From Limnobacter litoralis (lineage in GTDB: Bacteria > Pseudomonadota > Gammaproteobacteria > Burkholderiales > Burkholderiaceae_B): a DNA stretch of 43,056 nucleotides. The position numbers were made by a program, and so were the translations under genes. The DNA lies in assembly GCF_030160455.1 (NCBI RefSeq), contig NZ_BSOJ01000021.1, forward strand, positions 1 to 43,056. The letters run 5' to 3'. Position 1 is the first letter of the stretch. Every line of letters starts with the position of its first letter. Shown here piece after piece: positions 19,298-34,940 of this stretch. The notes under the pieces were generated by a model, which saw only the letters and a list, made by a program, of their open reading frames with translations, was not told the origin of the DNA and searched no databases.

Positions 19298-21019
19298 GTC
19301 AATCTGCGAGGCGCACAGGTTGATCAACCTGTGCGGTTCACCGCCTTTGACAAACACCTCATCCATGCCTGCCCGAAGCGCCGCTTCACGGTCGCTGTAG
19401 AGCTGACTGGCGGTGTATCCAATGATTTTCAGTTTACGGTGTCGCATCGAGCTTCTCAGTGCGCGGGCCAGCGTGTAACCGTCCATGCCTGGCATGTGGA
19501 TGTCCAGCAGAATCAGGTCGTAAGGGGGCTCGGCGCGGTCAATCATCTTGTAAGCTTCTTCACCGCCAAGGGCTATGTCCACATCGGCCTGTGCAATCAA
19601 AAACATTTCACGACCCACCTCGAGATTGATCAGGTTGTCGTCGACCACAAGAATGCGACGGCCCTTCAGGCGGGCCTTGGGCACCAGTTTCGGAATGTCT
19701 TCTGGCAAATCGTCCTGCTGTCCCTGGGCGATCCAGAGTGGCACTTCCAAAGTCACATTCGAGCGCCGGTTGATCTGCTCCTCTGAAATAACATGGCCAT
19801 TCATCAGCTTGATCAATCGGAACGCCAGGCTCAAACCCACGTCACGACGGGACACACTGCCCAGGCTGTTCGACTTCCGGATTTTGTCGAAAGCCTCGCG
19901 CAACACGCGAAGCGTGCTGGTCACCTTGGGCTCGCCGGTGTCAGCCAGATCGATGACCAGCAAAAACTGGTGAGGAAACGTAAAACGCGCAAAAATGCGG
20001 CAGCGCAGTTGGCCGTTGCGCAACAGTTTGACGATATTGACGATCAGCTCCTCCAGCGCCTGTTGCAAGCGGTTTTGATCGCCCAGGGCGAGTTCGGGAA
20101 TGTCGTTGGACATTTCCACACTCAAGTCCAGGTTGTACTGGTGGGCCATGCCTTCCAGCAAGGCCACCAAGCGATTGAGCAAACGGTTCAGCTCAAATGG
20201 TTCGTTCAGTGTTTGTAACTGGCCGTTTTCCGCCTCGTTGAGGTCAATGATTTTGAACAACAGGTCATCCAGCGTTTTGCACGATTCCTCAATGTCGGAT
20301 GCAATCTTGCTCTGCATGACATCCAGCCCGGATGCATTTAAGGAATGCAAGCCTGCGATGACCGCGTGCAGGGGTGTTCTGAATTCGTGGCTGATTGACC
20401 GCAGAAAAACCTTCTGTGTGGAATGCGCTTCCAGCAGGCTCCGGTTTCTTTCACGCAACAGCAAGATAAGCCGATTGAATTTGCCCACCGATTGAATGGA
20501 GAGGCAGGAAATGGTGTGGCAAATGGCAATCATCAGTATGCCGGACAAAACAAGACGGATGAAGTTGTAGCTGCTGATGGGCTCTAGGCCCAACATGCCC
20601 ACGTGCAAACCCACCGCGTACGCCACCAGCGTACACACCAAGGCCTTGCCGGGCTGAAACACCAGGTAGACGAACACCATGCCCAATGGTGCATAGAAAA
20701 ATGCGCCAATCCCCTCCACATAGCAGGCCAGGAAAAAATACATCAGGCTGATACTCAGGAAAATCATCTCGCCCAATTGGGAATGACGATTGCGCTTTAA
20801 GGTGCCACTGACCCAAACATAGGCGAGGCCGGCGATCACATCGATCCAGACATTGAACCAGTCCCCGTGCATGACACCGGACAAAGCCAGCGGAAAGCTG
20901 AGTACAAACGCAAGAAACAGGCTCAAGCCGGACAGCATGTGCGCACGTATCCTGCTGACCCGGGAGAATTCGGGCGCAGCAGGAAAAAAGAACGATTGGT
21001 ATCGATCCCAGCGGCTCAT
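19280..21019 (-). CDS. Hybrid histidine kinase with a degenerate ATPase domain
   Basis: A 579-aa membrane kinase. Several hydrophobic helices occupy residues about 28-185. The phosphoacceptor motif FLRSISHEFRTPLHAV has His near 210, an ATPase-like domain follows, and an intact C-terminal receiver begins near 455 (ILVVDDN, LLDIHMPGMDGYTLA, GYTAS, FVKGG). The ATP-binding boxes are worn: the N box reads EELIVNIVKLL, the G1 box DTGEPK in place of DTGxGI, and the G2 box DVGLSLAF in place of GxGLGLAI. Autokinase activity may therefore be weak, or the protein may act mainly as phosphatase or phospho-relay. It lies downstream of the ethylene-receptor-like kinase on the same strand, with a 128-base gap. 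The AAGAGA upstream supports the start. Confidence 0.9.
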   Translation of the reverse strand: MSRWDRYQSFFFPAAPEFSRVSRIRAHMLSGLSLFLAFVLSFPLALSGVMHGDWFNVWIDVIAGLAYVWVSGTLKRNRHSQLGEMIFLSISLMYFFLACYVEGIGAFFYAPLGMVFVYLVFQPGKALVCTLVAYAVGLHVGMLGLEPISSYNFIRLVLSGILMIAICHTISCLSIQSVGKFNRLILLLRERNRSLLEAHSTQKVFLRSISHEFRTPLHAVIAGLHSLNASGLDVMQSKIASDIEESCKTLDDLLFKIIDLNEAENGQLQTLNEPFELNRLLNRLVALLEGMAHQYNLDLSVEMSNDIPELALGDQNRLQQALEELIVNIVKLLRNGQLRCRIFARFTFPHQFLLVIDLADTGEPKVTSTLRVLREAFDKIRKSNSLGSVSRRDVGLSLAFRLIKLMNGHVISEEQINRRSNVTLEVPLWIAQGQQDDLPEDIPKLVPKARLKGRRILVVDDNLINLEVGREMFLIAQADVDIALGGEEAYKMIDRAEPPYDLILLDIHMPGMDGYTLARALRSSMRHRKLKIIGYTASQLYSDREAALRAGMDEVFVKGGEPHRLINLCASQIDSGMAA

Positions 21020-23827: not shown

Positions 23828-24646
23828 ATGTTCAACAGAATGCGCATCGTGTTAACGGGTCTGATTTGTGCGGGGTTCATGCAGGTTGCCACCCTTGCTT
23901 GGGCAACCCCGATTGATTCGAATTTCAAGCAGTGGAACCAGCTGCTGCAAAAGCACGTACAGTGGCTACCCGGTAAAACGCAAAGCCGGGTGGACTACGC
24001 CGGCTTTAAATCCGACAAAGCGCAGCTCGACAGCGTGCTGAAAGAGTGGTCTGGGTTAACACAGGCTGAATTCAGCAAAATGGACGTCAACACGCAAAAG
24101 GCGTTTTTGATCAATGCGTACAACGGCTTCACGATCGAACTGATCTTGAGCAAATACCCTGATTTGAAGTCCATCAAGGACCTGGGCTCCCTGTTCAGCA
24201 GCCCTTGGAAAAAAGACTTTTTCACCTTGCTGGGTGCAACGCACAACCTGGACTGGATCGAAAACAGCCAGCTTCGCGCCAAATACAAAGACCCACGCAT
24301 TCACACCGCCATCAACTGTGCCAGCATTGGTTGCCCGGCCCTGCTGGACGAAGCCTTTGTGCCCGGCAAACTGGACAAACAGCTTGACGAGGGCATGCAG
24401 CGTTTCTTGAAGGATCACACACGCAATTACGTCAAAGACGGCGAACTGCACGTCAGCCCGATTTTCAAATGGTTTGGGGATGACTTTGCCAAAGGGTATC
24501 AAGGCTTCAACAGCATTCAGGATGTCTTTGCCAAATACGCAAGTGTACTGGGCAACTCCCCCCAAGACGTGGCCGCCATTCAGTCCAAATCCATGCCGGT
24601 CCAATTTGAGGATTACGACTGGTCCTTGAACGACATCAAACGGTAG
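23828..24646 (+). CDS. Exported DUF547-family protein
   Basis: A 272-aa DUF547 protein of unknown function. The signal peptide (IVLTGLICAGFMQVATLAWA, cut before TPID) implies a periplasmic location. The family core is visible as KAFLINAYNGFTIELIL, then IHTAINCASIGCPALLDEAF with the conserved Cys pair, and FKWFGDDF. AGGAG lies six bases before the ATG. It is followed after 16 bases by an ATP-grasp gene on the same strand, a likely operon. DUF547 domains are widespread, also in plants, but no reaction is established; the conserved NCAS-GCP segment suggests a catalytic or metal site, which is inference. Confidence 0.88.
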   Translation: MFNRMRIVLTGLICAGFMQVATLAWATPIDSNFKQWNQLLQKHVQWLPGKTQSRVDYAGFKSDKAQLDSVLKEWSGLTQAEFSKMDVNTQKAFLINAYNGFTIELILSKYPDLKSIKDLGSLFSSPWKKDFFTLLGATHNLDWIENSQLRAKYKDPRIHTAINCASIGCPALLDEAFVPGKLDKQLDEGMQRFLKDHTRNYVKDGELHVSPIFKWFGDDFAKGYQGFNSIQDVFAKYASVLGNSPQDVAAIQSKSMPVQFEDYDWSLNDIKR

Positions 24647-24662
24647 CCGGACCAGTTTCACC

Positions 24663-25991
24663 ATGAAGCAGCAAAAAACGCTCATTCTGTTCAATTACGA
24701 CTGGGACCAAATCGCCTTTGGTGCCTTAAAGCGCCAATGGCCTCAGAGCAGTCGCGGGTTTGACCTGTTCACTTTTCCGAGCAACGCTCGCCTGGCCTGG
24801 TTTGACATGGAAAGATTCGTCAACATCAGCGCCTGGCAGGCGAAGCTGACCGGTGCCAAAGCGGTCGTCTCAAACCATGAACAGTTTGGTGCCCTGTGCG
24901 CAGCACTGCTGGCCGAAAAAATGGGCTGGCCGGGCACACCTGTCCACGCGGTGCTGGCCTGTCAACACAAGTTGCACGCCCGGCGTGTTCTTGAAGAAGT
25001 TGCCCCTGAGGCCACCGTGCCCGCCCTGCGGGTTGAGGCGGCCTATGGTGGCCCGATACCCGATGGTCTGCCCTACCCCGGCTATGTCAAGCCGGTGAAG
25101 GCTGCGTTTTCAGTGCTGGCCCGGCAGGTGGACAACCAGGATGAACTGCACAGACACACGCGCTTCGGCCCCTGGGAACTGTGGGTAATCCGCCATTTGG
25201 TGGAGCCTTTCGAGCGTGAAGTCAAATTGCGTCTGCCACAGGCGGGCACAGCGCACAGCCTGATGCTGGAACAGCCTGTGAATGCGCGCCAGTATTGTCT
25301 GGACGGCTATGTGTTCAACAATGAGATGCACCCCTTGGGCATTGTGGACTCGGTGATGTACCCGGGCACGGACGCGTTCATGCGATTTGACTACCCCTCG
25401 CAACTGGCAAGCACCGCCCAAGGCAAGGCTGTAGACGTAGCGCGTCGTTTTTTACAGAAAGTCGGTTTTACGCACGGGCTTTTCAACATGGAATTTTTCC
25501 ATGACGAGGAAACGGACAGGCTGACCGTCATCGAATTCAACCCGCGCATGGCTTCCCAGTTTTCTGACCTGTATTCACGGGTGGATGGCATCAACCTGCA
25601 CGAAATCGCACTGATGTTGGCGCATGGCCAAAACCCGGAACAGGCCGCTCGCAAAAAGCCCAAGGCAGGCATGGCCAGCAGCCTGGTTTACAGGGCGCTT
25701 CGCCCACAAGACCATCCGCCGTTTCCAGACCACTTGCAAATGGCCGCTTTTCGCAAACAATTTCCGGACGCCCTGTTTTTCGAATTCAAGAAAAAGCCCG
25801 GACAAGTGGAACGCGACTTCAAGTGGCTGCGCAGCTACCGTTACGGCATCGTGCATCTGGATGGCAAAGACCGGCTTGACCTGTTTGGAAATGCGCAGGC
25901 CGCCAGCGATGTGCTGGGCTGGCCAACGCCACTCAGCCTGACCGAGCGCGCGCTGTTATCGGGAGAATCGCTTGCGGCTAAAGTAGCTTAA
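24663..25991 (+). CDS. ATP-grasp domain protein, predicted carboxylate ligase
   Basis: A 442-aa protein whose middle and C-terminal parts look like an ATP-grasp ligase, which joins a carboxylate to an amine or thiol through an acyl-phosphate. Seen: QHKLHARRVLEEVAPEATVPA (pre-ATP-grasp region), PGYVKPVKAAFS with the ATP-contacting lysines, and NMEFFHDEETDRLTVIEFNPRMASQF, where E-x-N binds Mg. It follows the DUF547 gene by 16 bases. Its last 36 bases overlap the convergent ABC permease gene. I do not recognise the substrate. Amino-acid, peptide or cell-wall precursor ligation are all possible. Confidence 0.8.
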   Translation: MKQQKTLILFNYDWDQIAFGALKRQWPQSSRGFDLFTFPSNARLAWFDMERFVNISAWQAKLTGAKAVVSNHEQFGALCAALLAEKMGWPGTPVHAVLACQHKLHARRVLEEVAPEATVPALRVEAAYGGPIPDGLPYPGYVKPVKAAFSVLARQVDNQDELHRHTRFGPWELWVIRHLVEPFEREVKLRLPQAGTAHSLMLEQPVNARQYCLDGYVFNNEMHPLGIVDSVMYPGTDAFMRFDYPSQLASTAQGKAVDVARRFLQKVGFTHGLFNMEFFHDEETDRLTVIEFNPRMASQFSDLYSRVDGINLHEIALMLAHGQNPEQAARKKPKAGMASSLVYRALRPQDHPPFPDHLQMAAFRKQFPDALFFEFKKKPGQVERDFKWLRSYRYGIVHLDGKDRLDLFGNAQAASDVLGWPTPLSLTERALLSGESLAAKVA

Positions 25992-26792
25992 AGCGTCCAC
26001 AGCAGCCACCAGAATAATCATGGCCAGCAAAATTGTACTGGTTTCAGACATCTGGAAAAGCGCCATGTAATAAGCCAGCATTTGCCCAAGGCCGCCTGCA
26101 CCCACCACGCCTAGAATGGCTGCGGCGCGAATGTTGTTTTCCCAGCGGTACAAGGTGTAGCTGACCAACTGGGGCAACACCTGCGGAAATGTGGCGTACC
26201 AAAAGACGATGAAGCCGCTGGCACCACGTACACGCAGCGCGTAGGCCGCCTCATCGGGGCTGTTCTCGATGCACTCGGCAAACAAACGACCCAGCACACC
26301 CGTGGTGTGAAACGCCAAGGCCACGGTGCCAGCAAAAGGACCCAAGCCCAGCGCAATCAGCAACAGCATCGCCCACACCAGTTCAGGCACGGCACGCAAG
26401 CCATTCAAAACACCGCGCGCCAACTTGCGCCAGCGGGCAGGGTCTGTGGGGTAAGCCTTGCTGGCCGGAATGGCCCAGGCCAAGCCGAAAATGGCCGCCA
26501 GAATGGTACCCAGGGCCGACATTGCCAGCGTTTCAAAACTGCTTTTAAACACTTTCAGCAAAAAATCATGCTCAAAATTGGGTCGCAGCAATTCAAGCAC
26601 GAATGACCCCATGGCGCGCATGGAATCGGCTGACATAAAACTGGCAATCTCCAGATTCAAGCTGTAAAAACTGCTGACGATCAGCACCAGAATGGCAAAA
26701 GTGACCCAGCAGGACTTGCAGCGCGCATCAAACAGTTTGGGCGGCAAGCGATACACCTCGTTGGCAGGCTTCGTAACCATTTTTGTGCTCAT
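25956..26792 (-). CDS. PhnE-type ABC permease 2 of putative selenium-oxyanion importer
   Basis: A 278-aa inner-membrane permease of the phosphonate/phosphite (PhnE) type. Several hydrophobic helices and the EAA-like loop ECIENSPDEAAYALRVRGASG, which contacts the ATPase, are visible, with ILGVVGAGGLGQML near the C-terminus. It is last of four genes in a tightly coupled minus-strand operon; its ATG overlaps the stop of the first permease (ATGA at 26789-26792). The frame to 26837 is rejected for that reason. Together with the sister permease it would form the heterodimeric channel for the anion delivered by the binding protein. A selenium substrate is inferred from the neighbouring selenoneine genes; phosphonate or phosphite is the alternative. 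Confidence 0.85.
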   Translation of the reverse strand: MSTKMVTKPANEVYRLPPKLFDARCKSCWVTFAILVLIVSSFYSLNLEIASFMSADSMRAMGSFVLELLRPNFEHDFLLKVFKSSFETLAMSALGTILAAIFGLAWAIPASKAYPTDPARWRKLARGVLNGLRAVPELVWAMLLLIALGLGPFAGTVALAFHTTGVLGRLFAECIENSPDEAAYALRVRGASGFIVFWYATFPQVLPQLVSYTLYRWENNIRAAAILGVVGAGGLGQMLAYYMALFQMSETSTILLAMIILVAAVDALSYFSRKRFSR

Positions 26793-27613
26793 GCCAACGC
26801 ACTCCTCAGCCAGCCACTCACCCGGTCGGCCATCCACACCAGCAGCACAAACACCACCAGTATGGTGGCCACTTCAGAGCCGGCAAACATTTTCATCGAG
26901 GAATCCAGTTCCTGACCCAAGCCACCGGCCCCCACAAAACCAAGCACGGCCGATGATCGAATGGCACATTCCCAGCGGTACACTGTGTAGCTCGACAGCT
27001 CGGCCGCGCACTGGGGCAAGGTGCCGTAAAAGAAGGCCTGCAGCCGCCCACTGCCGTTTTTAAGCAGGGCAGACGCCGCCTGCGTGTCAGACGACTCAAC
27101 GATGTCGGCGTACACCTTGCCCAACATGCCACCGTAGGTCAGGCCAATGGCAAGCATACCCGAGGTTGGGCCCAAACCCACCACGCGCACAAACACCAAG
27201 GCCCACACCAACTCGGGGATGCTACGCAGCACGATGGCAAACCACCGAACACACTGGCGAGCCGCCGCCGACCAAGGGGACATGCGGCCACCAATGGCTG
27301 AAATCGACAACACACGGGCTGACATCAGCGAAATCGGAAGGGCAACCAGCCAGGCCAGGGTTAAACCGGCCGTGGCGATTGCAACAGTGCGCCAGCTTTG
27401 ACGGGCAACCAGCCACAGAAATTCGGAATCCATGCGGGGCGGAAACATGCCCACCACGAAATTAATCGCGGGTTTGTAGTTTTCTTCGTCCAGCAACACC
27501 CAAGGCTTAAACTCGGTCAGCCGCGTCACCGGCCACAGCAGTACCAAAAAGACGCCAAACCAGAACACTCGGCCAAGCCAGGCCGGGTCGCGATCCCGGT
27601 AAGAGGCTGTCAT
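26789..27613 (-). CDS. PhnE-type ABC permease 1 of putative selenium-oxyanion importer
   Basis: A 274-aa permease homologous to its neighbour. It has membrane helices, the ATPase-contact loop DIVESSDTQAASALLKNGSG and the closing VLGFVGAGGLGQELD. Two adjacent ATGs are possible; I use 27613 because it gives the same four-base ATGA overlap with the upstream ATPase gene that the other two junctions of this operon show (27619 adds two residues). Heterodimeric PhnE pairs are usual in PhnCDE-like systems. Its job is to pass the bound oxyanion across the inner membrane. The rest of a C-P lyase (phnG to phnM) is absent, which argues against phosphonate use. Confidence 0.86.
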   Translation of the reverse strand: MTASYRDRDPAWLGRVFWFGVFLVLLWPVTRLTEFKPWVLLDEENYKPAINFVVGMFPPRMDSEFLWLVARQSWRTVAIATAGLTLAWLVALPISLMSARVLSISAIGGRMSPWSAAARQCVRWFAIVLRSIPELVWALVFVRVVGLGPTSGMLAIGLTYGGMLGKVYADIVESSDTQAASALLKNGSGRLQAFFYGTLPQCAAELSSYTVYRWECAIRSSAVLGFVGAGGLGQELDSSMKMFAGSEVATILVVFVLLVWMADRVSGWLRSALA

Positions 27614-28440
27614 CTGCATGTCATCACCACAGGCGCCGGCTTTTCCAGAATTTGCGCGGGCTCGGGTGCGGGCCCGGTCAATTCGTCCAGATGCTGCTCA
27701 TACAAACCCTGCAGCATAGCCTCTGTAATGTCGGCCGCCGGCAGGTCAAAATACACCTCGCCGTCTCGAAGACCAATGACGCGTGGGAAAAACCGCAAAG
27801 CCATTTCAACGTGATGCAGGGTAGACACCAAAGTGGCGTCAGAGGTCTTGCAACTGTCCAGCAAAACGGTCAAGGCCTGTTCAGCGCGCGTTGGGTCCAG
27901 TGCGGACAGCGGCTCATCGACCAGCAGCAATTCGGATTTTGCCAACACCGCGCGGGCAAGCCCAACACGCTGGCGCTCTCCACCCGACAATCGATCAACC
28001 CGCTCGAAAAGCTTCTCGCTGAGGTCAAAACGGGTTAGCGCCTCGTCTGCAGCAGGAATGTCCACAGGGTAGAAGAGACTGCGCAAGCTGCGAAACAGAC
28101 CCATTTTGGGCAACGCCCCCGCCAACACCGAGGTGACCACCCGCTGACGGGGCGGCAAGGGTGGCACTTGAGGTGCCAAAAACAGGCTTTGGCGCAGGCG
28201 GGTCAAAGCGCCCTTGCGCAAAGTCCAAGGCGATACGCCGTTGAAAAGCACCTCACCCCCGCTTGGGCGAAGTGCACAGGCCAACACCTGCAACAGCGTG
28301 GTTTTACCCGCGCCAGAGGGGCCGATGATGGCCACTTGCTCCCCTGACTCAATGCACAGGGAAAGCGAGGTGATGGCCGCCCGGCCCTGACCATTGTCAG
28401 CAGGGTGACGGGCACTGCATTGCTTCAATTCCAGTTTCAC
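27610..28440 (-). CDS. PhnC-type ABC ATPase of putative selenium-oxyanion importer
   Basis: A 276-aa ABC transporter ATPase. Walker A is GPSGAGKTTLLQ (residues about 39-50), the Q-loop region APQVPPLPPRQRV, the signature LSGGERQRVGLARA, Walker B LLLVDEPLSALDP and the H-loop STLHHVE. It is cytoplasmic and powers the two PhnE-type permeases encoded next. The ATG overlaps the stop of the binding-protein gene (ATGA at 28437-28440). The order binding protein, ATPase, permease, permease is a complete importer. The sequence belongs to the phosphonate/phosphite importer ATPases; the selenium assignment rests on the binding protein and on the adjacent pathway. Confidence 0.9.
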   Translation of the reverse strand: MKLELKQCSARHPADNGQGRAAITSLSLCIESGEQVAIIGPSGAGKTTLLQVLACALRPSGGEVLFNGVSPWTLRKGALTRLRQSLFLAPQVPPLPPRQRVVTSVLAGALPKMGLFRSLRSLFYPVDIPAADEALTRFDLSEKLFERVDRLSGGERQRVGLARAVLAKSELLLVDEPLSALDPTRAEQALTVLLDSCKTSDATLVSTLHHVEMALRFFPRVIGLRDGEVYFDLPAADITEAMLQGLYEQHLDELTGPAPEPAQILEKPAPVVMTCR

Positions 28441-29303
28441 TTCAACAATCCGGCTGAGCGTGCTGATTCCTCAATGCCCTTGTAGTTGGCTGGGCTGGTT
28501 GGAACAAACTTGGTGGCACGCTGGAGTTCAAGAATCTGTTTGCCCTCAGGTGTATCAGGCGTCAGGTCCAGAAAGGCCTGCTTGATTTTTTCACGTTCGG
28601 CAGCAGGCATGCTGTCGTTGACTGACCAGTTGTAATCGTAATAGGACGGTGTGGTGTAGATCACATGCACTTTGCTGGTGTCCACTTTGCCGTCTTTCAC
28701 AAACTGGTTCCACACGGAAATGCTCAATGCACCAGCCTCCACCTTGCCTGCAGCCACTGCAGCGATGGTCGCGTCGTGCGCGCCAGAAAATGCAATGCGC
28801 TTGAAATCCTTTTCGGGATTGATGTGGGCTTGCAGCAGGTAATAACGTGGCATCAGGTGGCCAGATGTGCTGGAAGCAGAACCGAAACTCACGGTTTTAC
28901 CCTTCAGGTCTTCCAGGGTTTTGATGCTGGGGTCGGTGGTGATGAATACAGATTTGAATTTTTCATCTTCAGCGCGTTGCACCAGCGGAATGATGTGCCC
29001 TTTGGAGCGGTCATTGGCTTGCACAAAGGTAAAACCGCCGAACCAGGCCAGGTCTACCTTGTTGTTGGCCAGTGATTCCACAGCGGCTGCGTAATCGGTG
29101 ACGGGGGTGTACACCACTTTCATGTTCAACTTCTTGGACAAATAATCCATCAGGGGGTCGGCCTTGCGCGCAAGTTCAGTGGGCGACTCGTCAGGAATGG
29201 CGGTTACCTTGAAAACTTTTTCGGCATGCGCCATACCGGCCAGTCCGATCATGGCACAGGTCATCAAGACTTTAAAAGTGCGTGAAGGTGAAAAACTGAC
29301 CAT
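28437..29303 (-). CDS. PhnD-like periplasmic binding protein, putative selenate/selenium-oxyanion type
   Basis: A 288-aa periplasmic binding protein of the PhnD/PtxB superfamily. The signal peptide ends at GMAHA before EKVFKV. VTAIPDESPTELARKADPL, PVTDYAAAVESLANNKVDLAWFGGFTFVQA and the Ser-rich ligand loop SFGSASSTSGHLMPRYYL are visible; YYDYNWSVND closes the pocket. These resemble the subgroup that databases call putative selenate ABC-transporter binding proteins, typically found next to selenium genes. The start at 29303 has CAGGAG 7 bases upstream; the frame to 29438 is rejected. It is the first gene of the importer operon, divergent from egtD across about 148 bases, so import and biosynthesis could share control. 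Ligand binding has to be measured. Confidence 0.87.
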   Translation of the reverse strand: MVSFSPSRTFKVLMTCAMIGLAGMAHAEKVFKVTAIPDESPTELARKADPLMDYLSKKLNMKVVYTPVTDYAAAVESLANNKVDLAWFGGFTFVQANDRSKGHIIPLVQRAEDEKFKSVFITTDPSIKTLEDLKGKTVSFGSASSTSGHLMPRYYLLQAHINPEKDFKRIAFSGAHDATIAAVAAGKVEAGALSISVWNQFVKDGKVDTSKVHVIYTTPSYYDYNWSVNDSMPAAEREKIKQAFLDLTPDTPEGKQILELQRATKFVPTSPANYKGIEESARSAGLLK

Positions 29304-29390
29304 TGTGTACTCCTGTTGGGTTTGAACATGCAGGCGTGCCGCCCGACATTGCAGTATAGGTGAGAAAATCCGGCAATTGGTCTGGGGCGT

Positions 29391-29420
29391 CTTACAGAAC
29401 ACCACCGCCCGATGTATAAC
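29391..29420 (+). promoter_or_regulatory. Possible sigma-70 promoter for egtD
   Basis: CTTACA (29391-29396) and TATAAC (29415-29420) are separated by 18 bases, with the egtD ATG 31 bases further on. The -10 box is good (5 of 6) and the -35 box moderate (4 of 6). The same region must hold the promoter of the divergent importer operon. Confidence 0.35.
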
Positions 29421-29451
29421 AACGGGACAAGCTGCCATTTGGTTTTACAAC

Positions 29452-30468
29452 ATGTCGACATTGCCAGAATTCCTTGAGTTTCACATACCCCAGAACGACC
29501 ATGACGCTGGGCAATTGGCCAGCGCCCTGCTGGCTAGTCATGTTGAAATTGAGCCCAAATACTTCTACGACGACCTGGGCTCGAAACTGTTTGCCAGCAT
29601 CACCGCGTTGCCGGAATATTACCCGACCCGAACCGAAGCGCAAATTCTACGCAACCATCCCAGGGAACTGGCGCAATGGGTGCCCGCCGAACACATTCTG
29701 ATTGATTTGGGTGCGGGCGATTGTAAAAAGGCGGCCAGCCTGTTTCCGGTCATAAAACCGGCCAGGTACATTGCCGTGGACATTTCCAGCGTGTATTTGC
29801 GAGAAGTGCTCACCCACCTGCAACGGCAGTATCCACAGGTCCGCATGACCGGTGTCGGGCTTGATTTTTCAAAGGGCCTTGCCCTGCCCCAGGCGCTTGA
29901 ACTGGAAAGCGACAAACCTTTGGTTGTGTTTTATCCGGGCTCCAGCATCGGTAACTTCACGCCTCAACAAGCCCTGCACTTCACAAGTACCATCGCTCAG
30001 ACTTGCTCGCATCATCCAGACAGCGGCCTTTTGATCGGGGTTGATCTTGTGAAAGACACCAACACGCTTCAGGCCGCGTATGACGATGCGCTGGGTGTGA
30101 CAGCGGCTTTCAACAAAAACATGCTGCTTCACATCAACCGGTTGATCGATGCCAATTTTGATATTCGTCAGTGGATGCATGTGGCGCACTTCAACACCGA
30201 CGACAGTCGAATTGAAATGCACCTTGAGGCACTCAGCGACCTGACGGTCCAATGGCGCATGCCAGCCAGCGGACAGAGAGTGTTCAAAAAAGGCGAACGC
30301 ATTCACTCTGAAAACTCATACAAGTGGCGCATCGACCAGTTCAGCGCATTGCTTGAACAGGCGGGCTTTGGCGACATTCGAATGCTGACAGACCCGGAAA
30401 AACAATTTGCGGTTTATTGGGCGCAGGTGCGAAAACCGGCAAACAGATCACGCCGGTCCGGCAAATAG
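29452..30468 (+). CDS. egtD: EgtD, histidine Nalpha-methyltransferase (hercynine synthase)
   Basis: A SAM-dependent methyltransferase of 338 aa that trimethylates the alpha-amino group of histidine to hercynine, the scaffold of both ergothioneine and selenoneine. Seen: PKYFYDDLGSKLFASITALPEYYPTRTEAQIL (substrate side), the SAM loop LIDLGAGDCKKA near residue 86, VVFYPGSSIGNF, and the C-terminal SYKWRIDQFSALLEQAGF. I start at 29452; the longer frame to 29377 lies in the promoter region. The gene is convergent with senA and the two coding ends overlap by 55 bases. With senA, senB and the SelD fusion next to it, hercynine is predicted to go to selenoneine. Confidence 0.92.
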   Translation: MSTLPEFLEFHIPQNDHDAGQLASALLASHVEIEPKYFYDDLGSKLFASITALPEYYPTRTEAQILRNHPRELAQWVPAEHILIDLGAGDCKKAASLFPVIKPARYIAVDISSVYLREVLTHLQRQYPQVRMTGVGLDFSKGLALPQALELESDKPLVVFYPGSSIGNFTPQQALHFTSTIAQTCSHHPDSGLLIGVDLVKDTNTLQAAYDDALGVTAAFNKNMLLHINRLIDANFDIRQWMHVAHFNTDDSRIEMHLEALSDLTVQWRMPASGQRVFKKGERIHSENSYKWRIDQFSALLEQAGFGDIRMLTDPEKQFAVYWAQVRKPANRSRRSGK

Positions 30469-31625
30469 AAATTGCGGTAAGCCGGGTGCTGCATTTCCGG
30501 TGCAGTGGCCCAACTTGCCCCTTTCAGTACTTTGCGTTCATTGAACCAAGGCTCTGAGTAGTCGGCATACGGATGCGCCTTAAACCCTTCGTAGGGTAAA
30601 AAGGCACTTGACGTCCATTCCCACACCTGCCCCCACTCGAAATCATTGTGAATTCGGGCCGCCACTTCCCACTCTGTTTCGGTGGGCAACCTTCGGCCAG
30701 ACCAGATGCAGTAGGCCATGGCGTCCCACCATGACACATGGGACACCGGCGAATTCAAGTCAAGCGCTTGCCAGTGCTTGAAACATTGAATCTGCCATCC
30801 TGAGGTCGTGTTTTTCAAAACATGCGGTATGGCATGTCCCGATTTCGCCAAAAAACCCAGATAACTTCCCCAGGTCACAGGCTTGTCATCGATCTCAAAG
30901 GCTGCAACAGTGCGTTCATGGGGAGACAATTCGTTGTCAAATGCAAAACCCGCCCCGGTCCACCCCACCACATATCGACCCGCTGGCACCGTCAGCACCT
31001 TTGGATTTGCCGGTTCAGCGTTCGCCGGGCCAAGTTCTCTGGTGTGGTGTTTCGACAAGGGAATTCCCAGTGTCTGTGCCATGTAAACCGCCGCTTCCGC
31101 ATGCATTTGCTCGTGAAACAACACCAACCGGAAAAAATAATGCGCCTCTTCAATCGCCTGGGCATTGCTCTCACCCAATGTCTCGATTTCCTGCAGGTAC
31201 TCAAGGGTGCGGTTCAGGGCATCCTGGGCATACACTTGTGTTTCATGCAAGTTGGGCAGTGGCAAGGTCCACCGTGTTTCATGGGGCACAAGGCTGCTGT
31301 TGTAAAACGCATCGGCCTGCACAAAGCTGGAGAGCAAGCGTTGAATGTCGCGATTGGCCTGCAATCCTCGGTACCGGTGAGGATTGCGACCAATCCACCA
31401 ATCCTGAAACCAGGCCAAATGACCAAGCTCCCAAAGCGGAGGATTGATTTCAGGCCGCCGGGGCACCCGCAGCTCAGGCCCAAGCGCCGCCACGTAGTCA
31501 GCAAGCAGGGTAATCGTTCTGACACGGGCTTCCTTGAGCAGACGGGCCAGGCTTTTACCTTTCGATACCCTTGCCTGATGAGCGATCGTTCCCCTTGAAC
31601 TTGTGTAAACTGGAAATACAGACAC
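30414..31625 (-). CDS. senA: SenA, selenoneine synthase (EgtB-like non-haem iron enzyme)
   Basis: A 403-aa EgtB-family enzyme. An N-terminal DinB-like domain has a likely three-histidine iron site: His69 (ELGHLAWF) and His171/His175 (FHEQMHAEA). The C-terminal formylglycine-generating-enzyme-like domain contains VSWWDAMAYCIWSGRRLPTETEWEVAAR and ends YRNFYLPDRRDLFAGFRTCA. EgtB forms the C-S bond of ergothioneine. The SenA group, described in Variovorax, joins hercynine to a selenosugar instead. I call SenA because senB and a selD-type gene sit at its 5' side and egtD at its 3' side, with no egtC. It starts at a GTG with GAGGG six bases upstream, only 44 bases from the divergent senB start. An ergothioneine-making EgtB cannot be fully excluded by sequence. 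Confidence 0.88.
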   Translation of the reverse strand: MSVFPVYTSSRGTIAHQARVSKGKSLARLLKEARVRTITLLADYVAALGPELRVPRRPEINPPLWELGHLAWFQDWWIGRNPHRYRGLQANRDIQRLLSSFVQADAFYNSSLVPHETRWTLPLPNLHETQVYAQDALNRTLEYLQEIETLGESNAQAIEEAHYFFRLVLFHEQMHAEAAVYMAQTLGIPLSKHHTRELGPANAEPANPKVLTVPAGRYVVGWTGAGFAFDNELSPHERTVAAFEIDDKPVTWGSYLGFLAKSGHAIPHVLKNTTSGWQIQCFKHWQALDLNSPVSHVSWWDAMAYCIWSGRRLPTETEWEVAARIHNDFEWGQVWEWTSSAFLPYEGFKAHPYADYSEPWFNERKVLKGASWATAPEMQHPAYRNFYLPDRRDLFAGFRTCAQ

Positions 31626-31669
31626 TAAATACCCTCACTACAACTCGATCAAACTAACAAACACCGGCC
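31626..31669. promoter_or_regulatory. 44-base divergent senA/senB intergenic region
   Basis: Only 44 bases separate the two divergent GTG start codons. GAGGG (minus strand) serves senA. No good ribosome site precedes senB, and no convincing full promoter fits in the gap, so at least one promoter must lie inside the opposite gene's coding sequence. Confidence 0.5.
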
Positions 31670-32671
31670 GTGCACAAACACTCAACATCTGCAGTCATTG
31701 TTGGGCCGCTGGTATCCAGTGGTACCAATGGCAATCATCAGACAGCTTATCGCTGGTTCCGCCATATCTCAAGCCTATTGAAAGTCAAGGTCATTAACCA
31801 AACGGATATCAATGCCCTCCAGGCTGAGATCCATGCCAGCGATCTCATGATTGCATTACACGCCAAAAAGTCGGCCATGGCCATCGAGCAATGGCCCGAC
31901 AACAAGGCGCTGATTGTTGTGTTAACAGGCACCGATTTGTACCGTGACATCCATGACAGTTCACAAGCACAGCGTTCAATCGAAAAGGCAGATCGTTTGA
32001 TCGTACTGCAAGGGTTGGGCGACAGGCAGCTACCCACCCATTTGAGGGAAAAAACGCGAGTGGTTTATCAGTCGTGTTCTGCCCGAAAAGCACTGCAAAA
32101 AACCGGGCGACACCTGCGCGCCGTGATGGTGGGGCACCTGCGAGAGGAAAAAGACCCGCTGACCTTCATGGCTGCAGCCACCCATTTGAAAGGCCAATCC
32201 ATCCTGCTTGACCACATCGGAGAAGCGCTGGACGCCGAGCTTGGTCAGGCTGCGCAGCGCACGGCGGCATCCTGTCCAGCCTATCGCTGGTTGGGTGGTC
32301 TTGACCACGAGCAAACACGGCGACGCATACAACAGGCTCACGTTCTGGTGCACGCCAGCAAAATGGAAGGCGGCGCCCACGTGATCATGGAAGCGGCCCA
32401 AAGCGGCACGCCAGTGTTGGCCAGCCGTATCGATGGCAATGTCGGTATGCTGGGAGAAACCTACCCCGGGTACTTTCCACTGGGCGACTCAAAACAATTG
32501 GCCGACATGCTGCTACAACTTCGACACGAACAGCAAACCGGCGAAAACGGACTTTACACTGAACTATGCGCCCATGTTGCACAGCGGGCCGAACTGTTTA
32601 CCCCGGAAAATGAGCGACAATCGTTGCTGGCAGTCATCCAGGAGGTTTTACCTGTCCATGAAAAGCGTTGA
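31670..32671 (+). CDS. senB: SenB, selenosugar synthase (GT4-like glycosyltransferase)
   Basis: A 333-aa GT-B-fold glycosyltransferase-like protein. The C-terminal donor domain shows VGHLREEKDPLTFMAAATHL and VHASKMEGGAHVIMEAAQSG, the E-x7-E type nucleotide-sugar site, followed by TPVLASRIDGNVGMLG. In the selenoneine pathway SenB uses selenophosphate and a UDP-sugar to make a selenosugar, a C-Se bond-forming step. Identity here rests on the placement between senA and a SelD fusion gene, plus the fold. It starts at GTG with a poor ribosome site. Its last 14 bases overlap the start of the selD-type gene, indicating translational coupling of selenophosphate supply and use. Confidence 0.85.
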   Translation: MHKHSTSAVIVGPLVSSGTNGNHQTAYRWFRHISSLLKVKVINQTDINALQAEIHASDLMIALHAKKSAMAIEQWPDNKALIVVLTGTDLYRDIHDSSQAQRSIEKADRLIVLQGLGDRQLPTHLREKTRVVYQSCSARKALQKTGRHLRAVMVGHLREEKDPLTFMAAATHLKGQSILLDHIGEALDAELGQAAQRTAASCPAYRWLGGLDHEQTRRRIQQAHVLVHASKMEGGAHVIMEAAQSGTPVLASRIDGNVGMLGETYPGYFPLGDSKQLADMLLQLRHEQQTGENGLYTELCAHVAQRAELFTPENERQSLLAVIQEVLPVHEKR

Positions 32672-34940
32672 TCAACCCGTTCTGCGCGACATCGTCCTGA
32701 TCGGCGGGGGCCACAGCCACGTCGGTGTCATCAAGAAGTTCGGCATGGCCCCATGGCCCGGCGTCAGGCTCACCGTCATTTGCACCGACATTGACACACC
32801 CTACTCCGGCATGTTGCCGGGCTACATCGCGGGTCATTACCGATTTGACGAGGTCCACATTGATCTCGGTCGCCTGTGTGCGTTCGCTGGGGCCCGTTTC
32901 ATTCAGGCACGGGTTACCGGACTTGACCGAATGGCCAAAAAGGTGATTTGTGAAGGCAGACCACCGATTGCTTACGATGCGGTGTCCATCAACATTGGGT
33001 CTACACCACGTGTTGACCTGCAGGAAAGCACACCGGGTTCGGCTGTGCCTGTCAAACCCATCGCGCAATTCAACACACGCTGGCAGGCCTTGCTTGAACG
33101 CATCCGTTCGCATGCACCGGGCGTGTCCATCGCCGTGGTGGGTGGCGGTGCAGGCGGTGTAGAGCTGACCTTGGCCATGCAATACCGTTTGCGCAACGAA
33201 TTGACCAAGGCAGGCAAGAACCCCGATTCACTGAGCTTTCACCTGTTGACTGCGGGCGACAGGCTGTTGCCCACGCACAACCCGAAAGTGCAACAGGAAT
33301 TCATGCAGGTGCTTCAACAGCGCGGTGTGAATGTGCACCTGAATGCGGAGGTGATTCAGCTCAACGAGGGCGTGTTAAGCACCACACAGGGGCTCCAGCT
33401 CAAAGCCGACGAAGTCATGTGGGTCACCCAGGCAAAAGGGGCCGCCTGGCTCGCCAACACAGGGCTTGATCTGGATGAAGGTGGCTTCATTGAGGTCAAA
33501 GACACCCTGCAAAGTGTCAACGACGACCATGTGTTCGCTGCAGGTGACGTGGCCAGCTTCAAAGACCGACCCCTTGAAAAGGCGGGGGTTTTTGCGGTTC
33601 GCATGGGGAAGCCCCTGACCGAGAATTTGAAAAGGCACATGGAAGGCACCCCATTGGTGCACTATCGCCCTCAACGCACCTGGCTGGCATTGATCAGCAC
33701 GGGCGACCAATTTGCGATCGCCTCCAAAGGCGCACTGTCATTTTCAGGTGGCTGGGTTTGGCAGTGGAAAGACTGGATCGATCGTCGCTTCATGCGCAAA
33801 TTCACTGATCTGCAACCGATGGACATGGACGCTGCGCCCGCAGCCCCGGCCCCTTCTGTCAACTTGAGTGCCGAAGAAAGCCAGCAGGCCATTTCGGCAA
33901 TCGCCATGCGGTGCGGTGGCTGTGGCGCCAAAGTGGGCGCCAATGTGCTTTCTCGTGCACTGCAGGCCATTCACCCGATTGAACGTGACGACGTGCTGGT
34001 GGGTCTTCATGCACCCGATGACGCCGCCATTGTGCGGGTGCCCCCGGGCAAGGCCATGGTCCACACCGTTGATTTTTTCCGGGCATTCATCGACGACCCC
34101 TATGTGTTCGGCAAAATTGCCGCCAACCATGCATTGGGCGACGTGTTTGCGATGGGCGGACAAGCCCAGTCTGCAACCGCAGTGGCCACGGTTCCCCCAG
34201 GGCTTGAGGCCAAGGTGGAGGAGACGCTGTTCCAGATGATGTCGGGTGCGGTGGAGGTGCTGAATGAGGCGGGCTGCGCACTGGTCGGTGGACACACCGG
34301 TGAGGGCAAAGAACTGGCTTTGGGATTTGCAATCAACGGACTGGTGGACGAAAGCCTGAAAGGGGTGATGATCAAAGGGGGCCTGAAGGCTGGGCAAGTG
34401 ATCGTTCTGACCAAACCGATAGGCACCGGCACGCTGTTTGCCGCACTTCCGCAACTGGGCACGCGCGGCGTGTGGATACAACGCGCGCTGGAATCCATGA
34501 TGCATTCCAATCGAAAAGGGGCCGCAATCTTGATGGAGGCAGGGGCAACCGCCTGCACCGACCTCACCGGCTTTGGCCTGTTGGGCCACCTGGTCGAGAT
34601 GATCAAACCGTCGGGTGTGGACGTTCGCTTGAAACTGACAAGCTTGCCACTGCTGGACGGTGCACTTGAAACGACCCGCGCGGGCATTGTCAGTTCATTG
34701 CAGCCAGCCAACGTGCGGCTGCGCCGCGCCATACAAAACCAGGCAGCCTGGGTGAACCATCCACTCTACCCGCTGTTGTTCGACCCGCAAACCGCTGGTG
34801 GCCTGCTGGCCAGTGTGCCAGCAGACAATGCACTGCACTGCGTTGCGCAACTGCGCCAAAATGGATACCCGCACGCCGCCATCATCGGCGAGGTGCTTGC
34901 CCAAGGCGATGCGCTGGAACTTGTCGCCCTGACAGAGTAA
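32658..34940 (+). CDS. selD: Selenide-water dikinase fused to a flavoprotein domain (SenC/SelD)
   Basis: A 760-aa fusion. Residues 1 to about 380 form a pyridine-nucleotide-disulfide-oxidoreductase-like flavoprotein (VLIGGGHSHVGVIKKF, TPYSGMLPGYIAGHY, SIAVVGGGAGGVELTLAM, HVFAAGDVASF). Residues about 410-760 form selenophosphate synthetase (RCGGCGAKVG, GLHAPDDAAIVRVP, TVDFFRAFIDDPYVFGKIAANHALGDVFAMGG, LVGGHTGEGKELA, FDPQTAGGLL). By alignment Cys422 and Lys425 match E. coli SelD Cys17 and Lys20, while Cys19 is Ala424; no Sec codon is used. The product makes selenophosphate from selenide and ATP, and the flavoprotein part may deliver reduced selenium. AGGAGG lies about 12 bases before the ATG. 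Next to senB it fills the SenC role; general SelD duty (SelU/SelA) is also possible. Confidence 0.92.
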   Translation: MKSVDQPVLRDIVLIGGGHSHVGVIKKFGMAPWPGVRLTVICTDIDTPYSGMLPGYIAGHYRFDEVHIDLGRLCAFAGARFIQARVTGLDRMAKKVICEGRPPIAYDAVSINIGSTPRVDLQESTPGSAVPVKPIAQFNTRWQALLERIRSHAPGVSIAVVGGGAGGVELTLAMQYRLRNELTKAGKNPDSLSFHLLTAGDRLLPTHNPKVQQEFMQVLQQRGVNVHLNAEVIQLNEGVLSTTQGLQLKADEVMWVTQAKGAAWLANTGLDLDEGGFIEVKDTLQSVNDDHVFAAGDVASFKDRPLEKAGVFAVRMGKPLTENLKRHMEGTPLVHYRPQRTWLALISTGDQFAIASKGALSFSGGWVWQWKDWIDRRFMRKFTDLQPMDMDAAPAAPAPSVNLSAEESQQAISAIAMRCGGCGAKVGANVLSRALQAIHPIERDDVLVGLHAPDDAAIVRVPPGKAMVHTVDFFRAFIDDPYVFGKIAANHALGDVFAMGGQAQSATAVATVPPGLEAKVEETLFQMMSGAVEVLNEAGCALVGGHTGEGKELALGFAINGLVDESLKGVMIKGGLKAGQVIVLTKPIGTGTLFAALPQLGTRGVWIQRALESMMHSNRKGAAILMEAGATACTDLTGFGLLGHLVEMIKPSGVDVRLKLTSLPLLDGALETTRAGIVSSLQPANVRLRRAIQNQAAWVNHPLYPLLFDPQTAGGLLASVPADNALHCVAQLRQNGYPHAAIIGEVLAQGDALELVALTE

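Follow-up and report, generated by a model that had tools for sequence, protein, structure and literature searches.

Gene content of the locus

We analysed a 43,056-nucleotide stretch of the Limnobacter litoralis genome (NZ_BSOJ01000021.1; hereafter the window), which is the whole of contig C21 of G000, a genome of 3.01 Mb in 47 contigs. The window carries a group of genes that we read as a locus for selenoneine biosynthesis that makes its own hercynine, has an oxyanion importer of its own and probably includes a ligase acting downstream (Table 1). Judged from the sequence, the probability of this reading is roughly 0.7. A selenoneine cluster, senABC, was reportedly found in Variovorax paradoxus DSM 30034 by Kayrouz et al. 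in 2022. The genomes of our sample, 250 from the same order with egtD searched in 240, are given G numbers, and loci are given L numbers.

A preliminary description had placed eight genes between positions 25956 and 34940, and all of them were recovered there as open reading frames with profile matches. The complete ATP-binding cassette (ABC) importer that it reported, comprising two PhnE-like permeases, a PhnC-like ATPase and a binding protein on the minus strand, indeed diverges from egtD on the plus strand. This picture of the locus holds for the genes that it included and leaves out the ATP-grasp gene and the DUF547 gene, which lie just beyond the importer. The 3' end of the second permease gene overlaps that of the ATP-grasp gene, the convergent genes egtD and senA overlap at their ends, and senB and senC share 14 bp if senC begins at its proposed start. 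The ATPase translation contains GPSGAGKTT and LSGGERQ, which we take to be the Walker A and signature motifs, respectively. Rfam models at gathering scores gave no match between positions 20000 and 40000.

Table 1 Features of the selenoneine locus in window coordinates, with profile scores and cut-offs in bits.
Feature	Position	Strand	Evidence and remarks
DUF547 protein	23828..24646	+	PF04784 76.6; 16 bp upstream of ATP-grasp gene
ATP-grasp ligase gene	24663..25991	+	PF13535 29.4 (cut-off 27)
PhnE-like permease 2	25956..26837	-	TIGR01097 251.5 (cut-off 216.7)
PhnE-like permease 1	26789..27619	-	TIGR01097 202.2 (below cut-off 216.7)
PhnC-like ATPase	27610..28440	-	TIGR02315 187.5, best family (below cut-off 266.1)
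Importer substrate-binding protein	28437..29303	-	TIGR04553 395.6 (cut-off 250); proposed ATG at 29303
Intergenic region between diverging importer and egtD starts	29304..29451		148 bp
egtD, histidine N-alpha-trimethyltransferase	29452..30468	+	TIGR03438 345.3 (cut-off 290.9)
senA, predicted selenoneine synthase	30414..31625	-	NF041186 443.3 (cut-off 420); tree; PDB 8ryz
Gap between diverging senA and senB starts	31626..31669		44 bp
senB, predicted selenosugar synthase	31670..32671	+	TIGR04348 389.3 (cut-off 300)
senC, flavoprotein domain like type II NADH dehydrogenase (NDH-2) fused to SelD	32658..34940	+	TIGR03169 506.3 (cut-off 310); TIGR00476 284.1 (cut-off 125)

The EgtB-like protein groups with SenA

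The EgtB-like protein of the window is most similar to the crystallised SenA of Variovorax (PDB 8ryz, 328.5 bits), compared with 164 bits for OvsA and 114 bits for the best EgtB structure. In a 75-row tree it was placed inside a 20-row clade that includes the V. paradoxus SenA (support 96/99), and both OvsA and the EgtB-type rows, which were named by their adjacency to egtD and their place in the tree and not by an EgtB model, fell outside this clade. This tree is the second that was inferred and omits five rows (L048, L157, L182, L074, and L150). These results, together with the NF041186 match, support the earlier assignment of the protein to SenA. Clustering with ergothioneine-type EgtB, which the preliminary description had named as the outcome that would contradict it, was looked for, and the protein stood apart from the EgtB-type rows.

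Some caution is needed, as three observations weigh against this assignment. The window protein is barely above the NF041186 cut-off (443.3 versus 420 bits), the OvsA encoded in the same genome also passes this model (427 bits), and the nearest row in the tree is at most 51% identical. Given that NF041186 passes SenA and OvsA alike, the profile alone cannot separate them, and a match to it was dropped as proof of SenA. An enzyme making ergothioneine (EgtB) or ovoselenol (OvsA) instead of selenoneine would fit the shared profile match and the low identity. We consider such an enzyme very improbable here, because the structure scores and the tree both favour SenA, the gene adjoins egtD, and the genome already has a separate OvsA-OvsM pair.

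Two observations on the wider family were made in passing. As OvsA exceeds the NF041186 cut-off, annotation pipelines may misname it as SenA. Furthermore, a set of senB-linked SenA-like proteins (L124, L130, L133-L135, L139-L141, L143-L145, L147, and L148) scored within about 35 bits of each other against the SenA and OvsA structures. They are not accompanied by egtD and possibly represent a further functional group.

SenB, SenC, EgtD and other selenium genes of the genome

The gene previously called a glycosyltransferase of the GT-B fold is predicted to encode SenB. It exceeds the TIGR04348 cut-off, and in an alignment with four distinct solved SenB sequences, judged by eye, counterparts of N20, T23, R155, K158 and the EGGAHV motif are all present. 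These positions are mapped as catalytic residues in PMC10891094. The proposed flavoprotein-SelD fusion was likewise borne out, with both halves above the cut-offs of their families and matching a YjlD-type NADH dehydrogenase and SelD in the PDB, respectively, and with a score of 456.5 bits against the ‘fusion_not_SelD’ model TIGR04369, which is below its cut-off of 700. The SelD half carries a CGGCGAK stretch, presumably holding the active-site Cys and Lys by analogy with E. coli SelD.

The egtD gene of the window is the only egtD match in the genome. A search with the SenA profile at E ≤ 1e-60 found only SenA and OvsA in G000; the EgtB model itself was not searched and a distant EgtB is possible. 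The same profile and threshold recovered egtD-adjacent EgtB-type genes in the family relatives G053, G098, G207, and G237. As no egtD-linked EgtB-type gene was found, the single EgtD probably serves selenoneine synthesis, which strengthens the earlier proposal that hercynine is made on site.

A second set of selenometabolite genes, which the preliminary description missed while correctly recognising the selenoneine cluster, is located on contig C6. It comprises an ovsA gene (L106:9489-10778), whose product scored 557 bits against PDB 8u41 and 201 bits against SenA, followed by a gene for an OvsM-like methyltransferase (281 bits to PDB 9bxh). Together they form an ovoselenol pair at L106:8724-10778, and this match and neighbour excluded the idea that the second SenA-like gene is an ergothioneine EgtB. 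The genome has one SelD match (E ≤ 1e-40), which is the fused SenC, and one SenB above the cut-off, and these may serve both selenoneine and ovoselenol synthesis. SelU is present as well and would draw on the same fused SelD. As a search for SelA gave no match in the genome, L. litoralis offers a clean case in which the genes for selenoneine, ovoselenol, and selenouridine all seem to rely on a single selenophosphate synthetase, the fused one.

Elsewhere, SenB above the cut-off occurred without a SenA-like gene in the surrounding stretch (L108, L110-L112, L115-L117, L121, and L126 among others; families f14, f33, f43, and f50). Some of these genomes have a SenA-type match at another location, and the selenosugar in such genomes may feed ovoselenol or another product. 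In addition, a selD gene with one in-frame TGA, probably encoding a selenocysteine-containing SelD, was seen in at least nine genomes (G005, G046, G055, G090, G131, G144, G169, G181, and G233).

The importer is likely to take up a selenium oxyanion

The binding protein (E ≤ 1e-60) was present in 57 of the 250 genomes. SelD was found in 51 of these 57 genomes, a count read by eye, compared with 179 of 250 overall (p = 3e-4), and SenA or SelA in 44 of them, compared with 100 of 250. SenA was scored as positive in 63 genomes, with 54 over the cut-off, some of which may be OvsA, and nine below it, namely seven beside a senB match, G076 in the same cluster, and G170 with a truncated copy (419.0 bits) on another contig. 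According to gene maps, selD, senA, senB or egtD lay within 10 kb of the importer in 10 of the 57 genomes, for which a crude model that ignores common descent gives a chance of approximately 6e-7. Linkage at this distance to egtD and/or sen genes in particular was seen in five sample genomes (G049, G076, G102, G113, and G179) and in two named loci (L040 and L044). We also inferred a tree of binding proteins from 55 of the 57 genomes plus L040 and L044, leaving out G237 (below the map threshold) and a fragment in G104. The linkage required at least six gains or losses on this tree, a number as low in 114 of 500 label shuffles; it is scattered over the tree and is not one inherited block.

Phosphite and selenite are trigonal pyramids, whereas selenate is tetrahedral. 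The binding-pocket comparison covered the same 57 proteins as the tree. Among these homologues, the contact residues of the phosphite-binding protein Pm_PhnD were kept almost throughout (Y46, S126, T127, S128, and H158 in 57, 57, 56, 56, and 57, respectively, and the capping Y206 in 57), and the window protein is identical at nine of ten positions, with N176 replaced by S. The contacts were taken from PMC5700983, in which the capping tyrosine is described as a steric barrier to bulkier ligands. Given this phosphite-type pocket with its capping tyrosine, and the pyramidal shape that selenite shares with phosphite, the comparison suggests selenite over selenate as the expected substrate. As a separate observation, three covarying pocket positions (Pm_PhnD 13/176/205) define two subtypes among the binding proteins of the window, L040, L044, and L050-L105. 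Of these 57 proteins, 32 have D/N/D and 22 have E/D/N; the window protein itself has D/S/D.

The conserved contacts would equally suit an ordinary phosphite or phosphonate importer that lies by chance between the ATP-grasp gene and egtD, and the closest solved relatives of the binding protein are named phosphite or phosphonate binders. We regard such an importer as unlikely. The binding protein exceeds the TIGR04553 cut-off, the nearby sen, egtD or selD genes in 10 of 57 importer genomes are spread over the tree, and SelD, SenB, SenA, and EgtD are among the clusters that recur near the importer across families. Pyramidal selenite could also substitute for pyramidal phosphite in a pocket of this kind. 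An inspection by eye of the 40 largest clusters of importer neighbours, which were not annotated with Pfam, revealed no evident ptxD, C-P lyase or other rival pathway.

Several results speak against a dedicated selenium role. The importer occurs without SenA in 23 of 57 genomes, without both SenA and SelA in 13, and without a SelD match in six. When labels were shuffled within families (each of the three genomes with no family listed counted as a separate family), the association with SenA was modest (157 of 20,000 shuffles as high) and that with SelA was not above chance (7,151 of 20,000). An AlphaFold model of the binding protein, with three sequences supplied, was too poor to help (mean predicted local distance difference test score, pLDDT, 56). 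On balance, the importer is likely to take up a selenium oxyanion. According to two reviews (PMC9312934, from 2022, and PMC13188914, from 2026), no specific transporter with high affinity for selenium has been identified in prokaryotes.

The ATP-grasp gene follows SenA in the sampled genomes

The ATP-grasp gene (E ≤ 1e-20) was detected in 27 of the 250 genomes, which represent 16 genera and 11 families. All 27 carriers have a SenA match, compared with 36 of the 223 non-carriers (p = 4e-19), and with the strict SenA cut-off the counts are 21 of 27 and 33 of 223 (p = 3e-11); neither p value is corrected for relatedness. The six carriers below the cut-off are G113, G125, G163, G198, and G228, in which SenA lies beside senB, and G170 with its truncated copy. 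Within-family shuffling reached 27 in none of 20,000 draws, and the corresponding association with SenB was matched in one of 20,000. Furthermore, among 103 egtD-positive genomes the ATP-grasp gene was present in 27 of the 57 with SenA and in none of the 46 without it. The gene thus follows selenoneine-type genes and not ergothioneine, and the latter association was ruled out on this basis. Within family f1, the window's genome is the only one of eight sampled to have SenB over the cut-off, and likewise the only one to have the ATP-grasp gene, which suggests acquisition by transfer.

Physical linkage points in the same direction. In five of the 27 carriers (G000, G102, G175, G179, and G210) the ATP-grasp gene is within 5 kb of senA or egtD, with a chance of approximately 4e-7 under a crude model that ignores common descent. 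In L032 and L033, which come from two metagenome-assembled genomes of Rhodocyclales, the ATP-grasp gene overlaps by 4 bp with a gene for a YHS-like lipoprotein (weak Pfam matches, 23-31 bits versus 30.3), and this gene overlaps egtD by another 4 bp; the three therefore look like one operon.

The protein itself is distant from named families, its best NCBIfam match being 61.2 bits against a cut-off of 625, and profile matches extend to carbamoyl-phosphate synthase and to two L-amino acid ligases, BL00235 and BacD. We aligned the proteins of 21 of the 27 carriers (without G002, G046, G059, G170, G179, and G233) with those of L032 and L033. K143, E277, E291, N293, and R295 are invariant in these 23 homologues, and the enzyme accordingly looks active. 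The first four presumably correspond to the metal- and ATP-binding residues of ATP-grasp enzymes.

The neighbours of the gene vary. A DUF547 gene also lies directly upstream of it in G038 (L205), a partial DUF547 match is 1.6 kb from it in G016 (L215), and in G059 (L099) a DUF547 gene adjoins the importer; the DUF547 protein of the window is a possible partner of the ligase. A VTT-type (DedA-like) gene is found directly upstream in L200, L202, L203, L032, and L033, with the Pfam assignment made for the L200 member only. A small S-adenosylmethionine-dependent methyltransferase gene adjoins the ATP-grasp gene in L208, L209, and L212, that is, in three genomes from three families.

The link to selenoneine has to be weighed against a number of findings. 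The gene is absent from 36 of the 63 SenA-positive genomes and from eight of nine further genomes with sen loci, which we chose from the 18 named loci with L032 and L033 excluded. In 22 of the 27 carriers, neither senA nor egtD lies within 5 kb on the contig of the ATP-grasp gene. The six sen-linked copies fall on one side of one branch of the ATP-grasp tree (100/99), so the linkage may have arisen once, in which case the crude adjacency odds are too favourable. Six plasmid records contain relatives at 32-35% identity, of which the two full-length ones form a separate long branch in the ATP-grasp tree. The three plasmid regions viewed, one each from Paraburkholderia, Sphingobium, and Sphingomonas, hold many genes related to copper and heavy metals, and the gene table, which is incomplete, lists no sen gene within 10-12 kb. 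An AlphaFold model of the enzyme was too poor to use (mean pLDDT 48, three sequences supplied).

These plasmids raise the alternative that the enzyme works in resistance to metals such as copper, or in some other redox process that is common among sen carriers, and not on selenoneine. The many copies remote from senA and egtD would agree with this, as would a Hydrogenophaga plasmid in which senB and an EgtB-like gene lie in an arsenic, chromium, mercury and copper resistance island. A general role in metal resistance is harder to reconcile with the absence of the gene, at the same threshold, from all 187 SenA-negative genomes of the sample, with the operon overlap with egtD in L032 and L033, and with the five copies close to senA or egtD. 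We give this alternative a substantial, though minority, chance, and favour a selenoneine-tailoring ligase as the probable function. Independently of this question, sen genes appear on mobile elements: the Hydrogenophaga case is a plasmid of strain sp. BPS33 (L222), and a small Methylorubrum populi plasmid (L223) carries senA-senB beside an insertion sequence.

A proposed route from selenite to selenoneine and beyond

The chemistry of the selenoneine pathway is known from V. paradoxus. In the window, the binding protein would capture selenite, and the PhnC-like ATPase with its two permeases would import it. Selenite would be reduced to selenide by cellular thiols, perhaps also by the flavoprotein half of SenC, and the SelD half would convert selenide to selenophosphate. 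SenB would then join selenophosphate to a UDP-sugar, EgtD would trimethylate histidine to hercynine, and SenA would combine hercynine with the SenB product to give selenoneine. The assignments of the SelD, SenB, EgtD, and SenA steps are supported by profile, residues or tree.

Thereafter, the ATP-grasp enzyme would probably activate the carboxylate of selenoneine and join it to an amine. Its amine being trimethylated, selenoneine would most naturally be ligated through the carboxylate, and a selenoneine-amine conjugate might be the simplest product. Such an amide conjugate would not yet have been described, as far as the literature searched reaches. In its fullest form, the proposal gives the ATP-grasp enzyme a so far unrecognised role in selenoneine metabolism, the formation of an amide conjugate, and makes the importer a dedicated selenite importer on a phosphite-binding scaffold. 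This form strikes us as rather doubtful when both halves are required together.

The gene families themselves were already known, NCBIfam had predicted a selenium role for the binding protein, and importer-sen loci recur in relatives. What appears to be new is that the ATP-grasp gene is tied to SenA. We found no prior mention of this in the literature searched, with the founding Kayrouz papers of 2022 and 2024 outside its scope. A locus that seems to run from a candidate importer to selenoneine makes the question of a specific prokaryotic selenium transporter directly testable. Further, the ATP-grasp gene hints at another selenometabolite; if true, bacteria would make a selenium small molecule in addition to selenoneine and ovoselenol.

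Comparison with known systems

The selenoneine cluster of V. paradoxus DSM 30034 is described in PMC9814287. Like the window, it encodes SenA, SenB and a selenophosphate synthetase, and the window SenA and SenB resemble the crystallised proteins. Compared with the senABC genes alone, the window adds egtD inside the locus, the fusion of SenC to a flavoprotein, the joined ABC importer and the adjoining ATP-grasp gene, and its genes are arranged in four units of alternating direction.

Closer counterparts exist in gene order. The arrangement egtD-senA-senB-fused senC, in the same order and orientation, recurs in six of 18 named SenA loci, from Rhodocyclales (L032 and L033) and Accumulibacter (L034 and L036-L038), and the order in the window is therefore not a chance arrangement. 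L032 and L033 also share an ATP-grasp gene upstream of egtD; unlike the window, they have no importer between the two, and their operon also contains a VTT-type gene and the gene with the weak YHS match. G049 and G076 resemble the window in having the importer, egtD, senA, senB, and selD in one stretch, whereas their SelD is unfused, their gene order differs and no ATP-grasp match was found in either genome.

For the importer, the relevant reference is TIGR04553, a hypothetical equivalog family of NCBIfam named putative selenate ABC transporter substrate-binding protein, the cut-off of which the window protein exceeds. The family name is a prediction and refers to selenate, whereas the pocket geometry in the window suggests selenite. 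For the ATP-grasp enzyme, the L-amino acid ligases BL00235 and BacD are distant profile matches over the ATP-grasp fold, with low similarity (E about 1e-9 to 1e-6). The family in the window differs from them in its own conserved C-terminal residues, R384, W388, and R393, and in its genomic tie to SenA.

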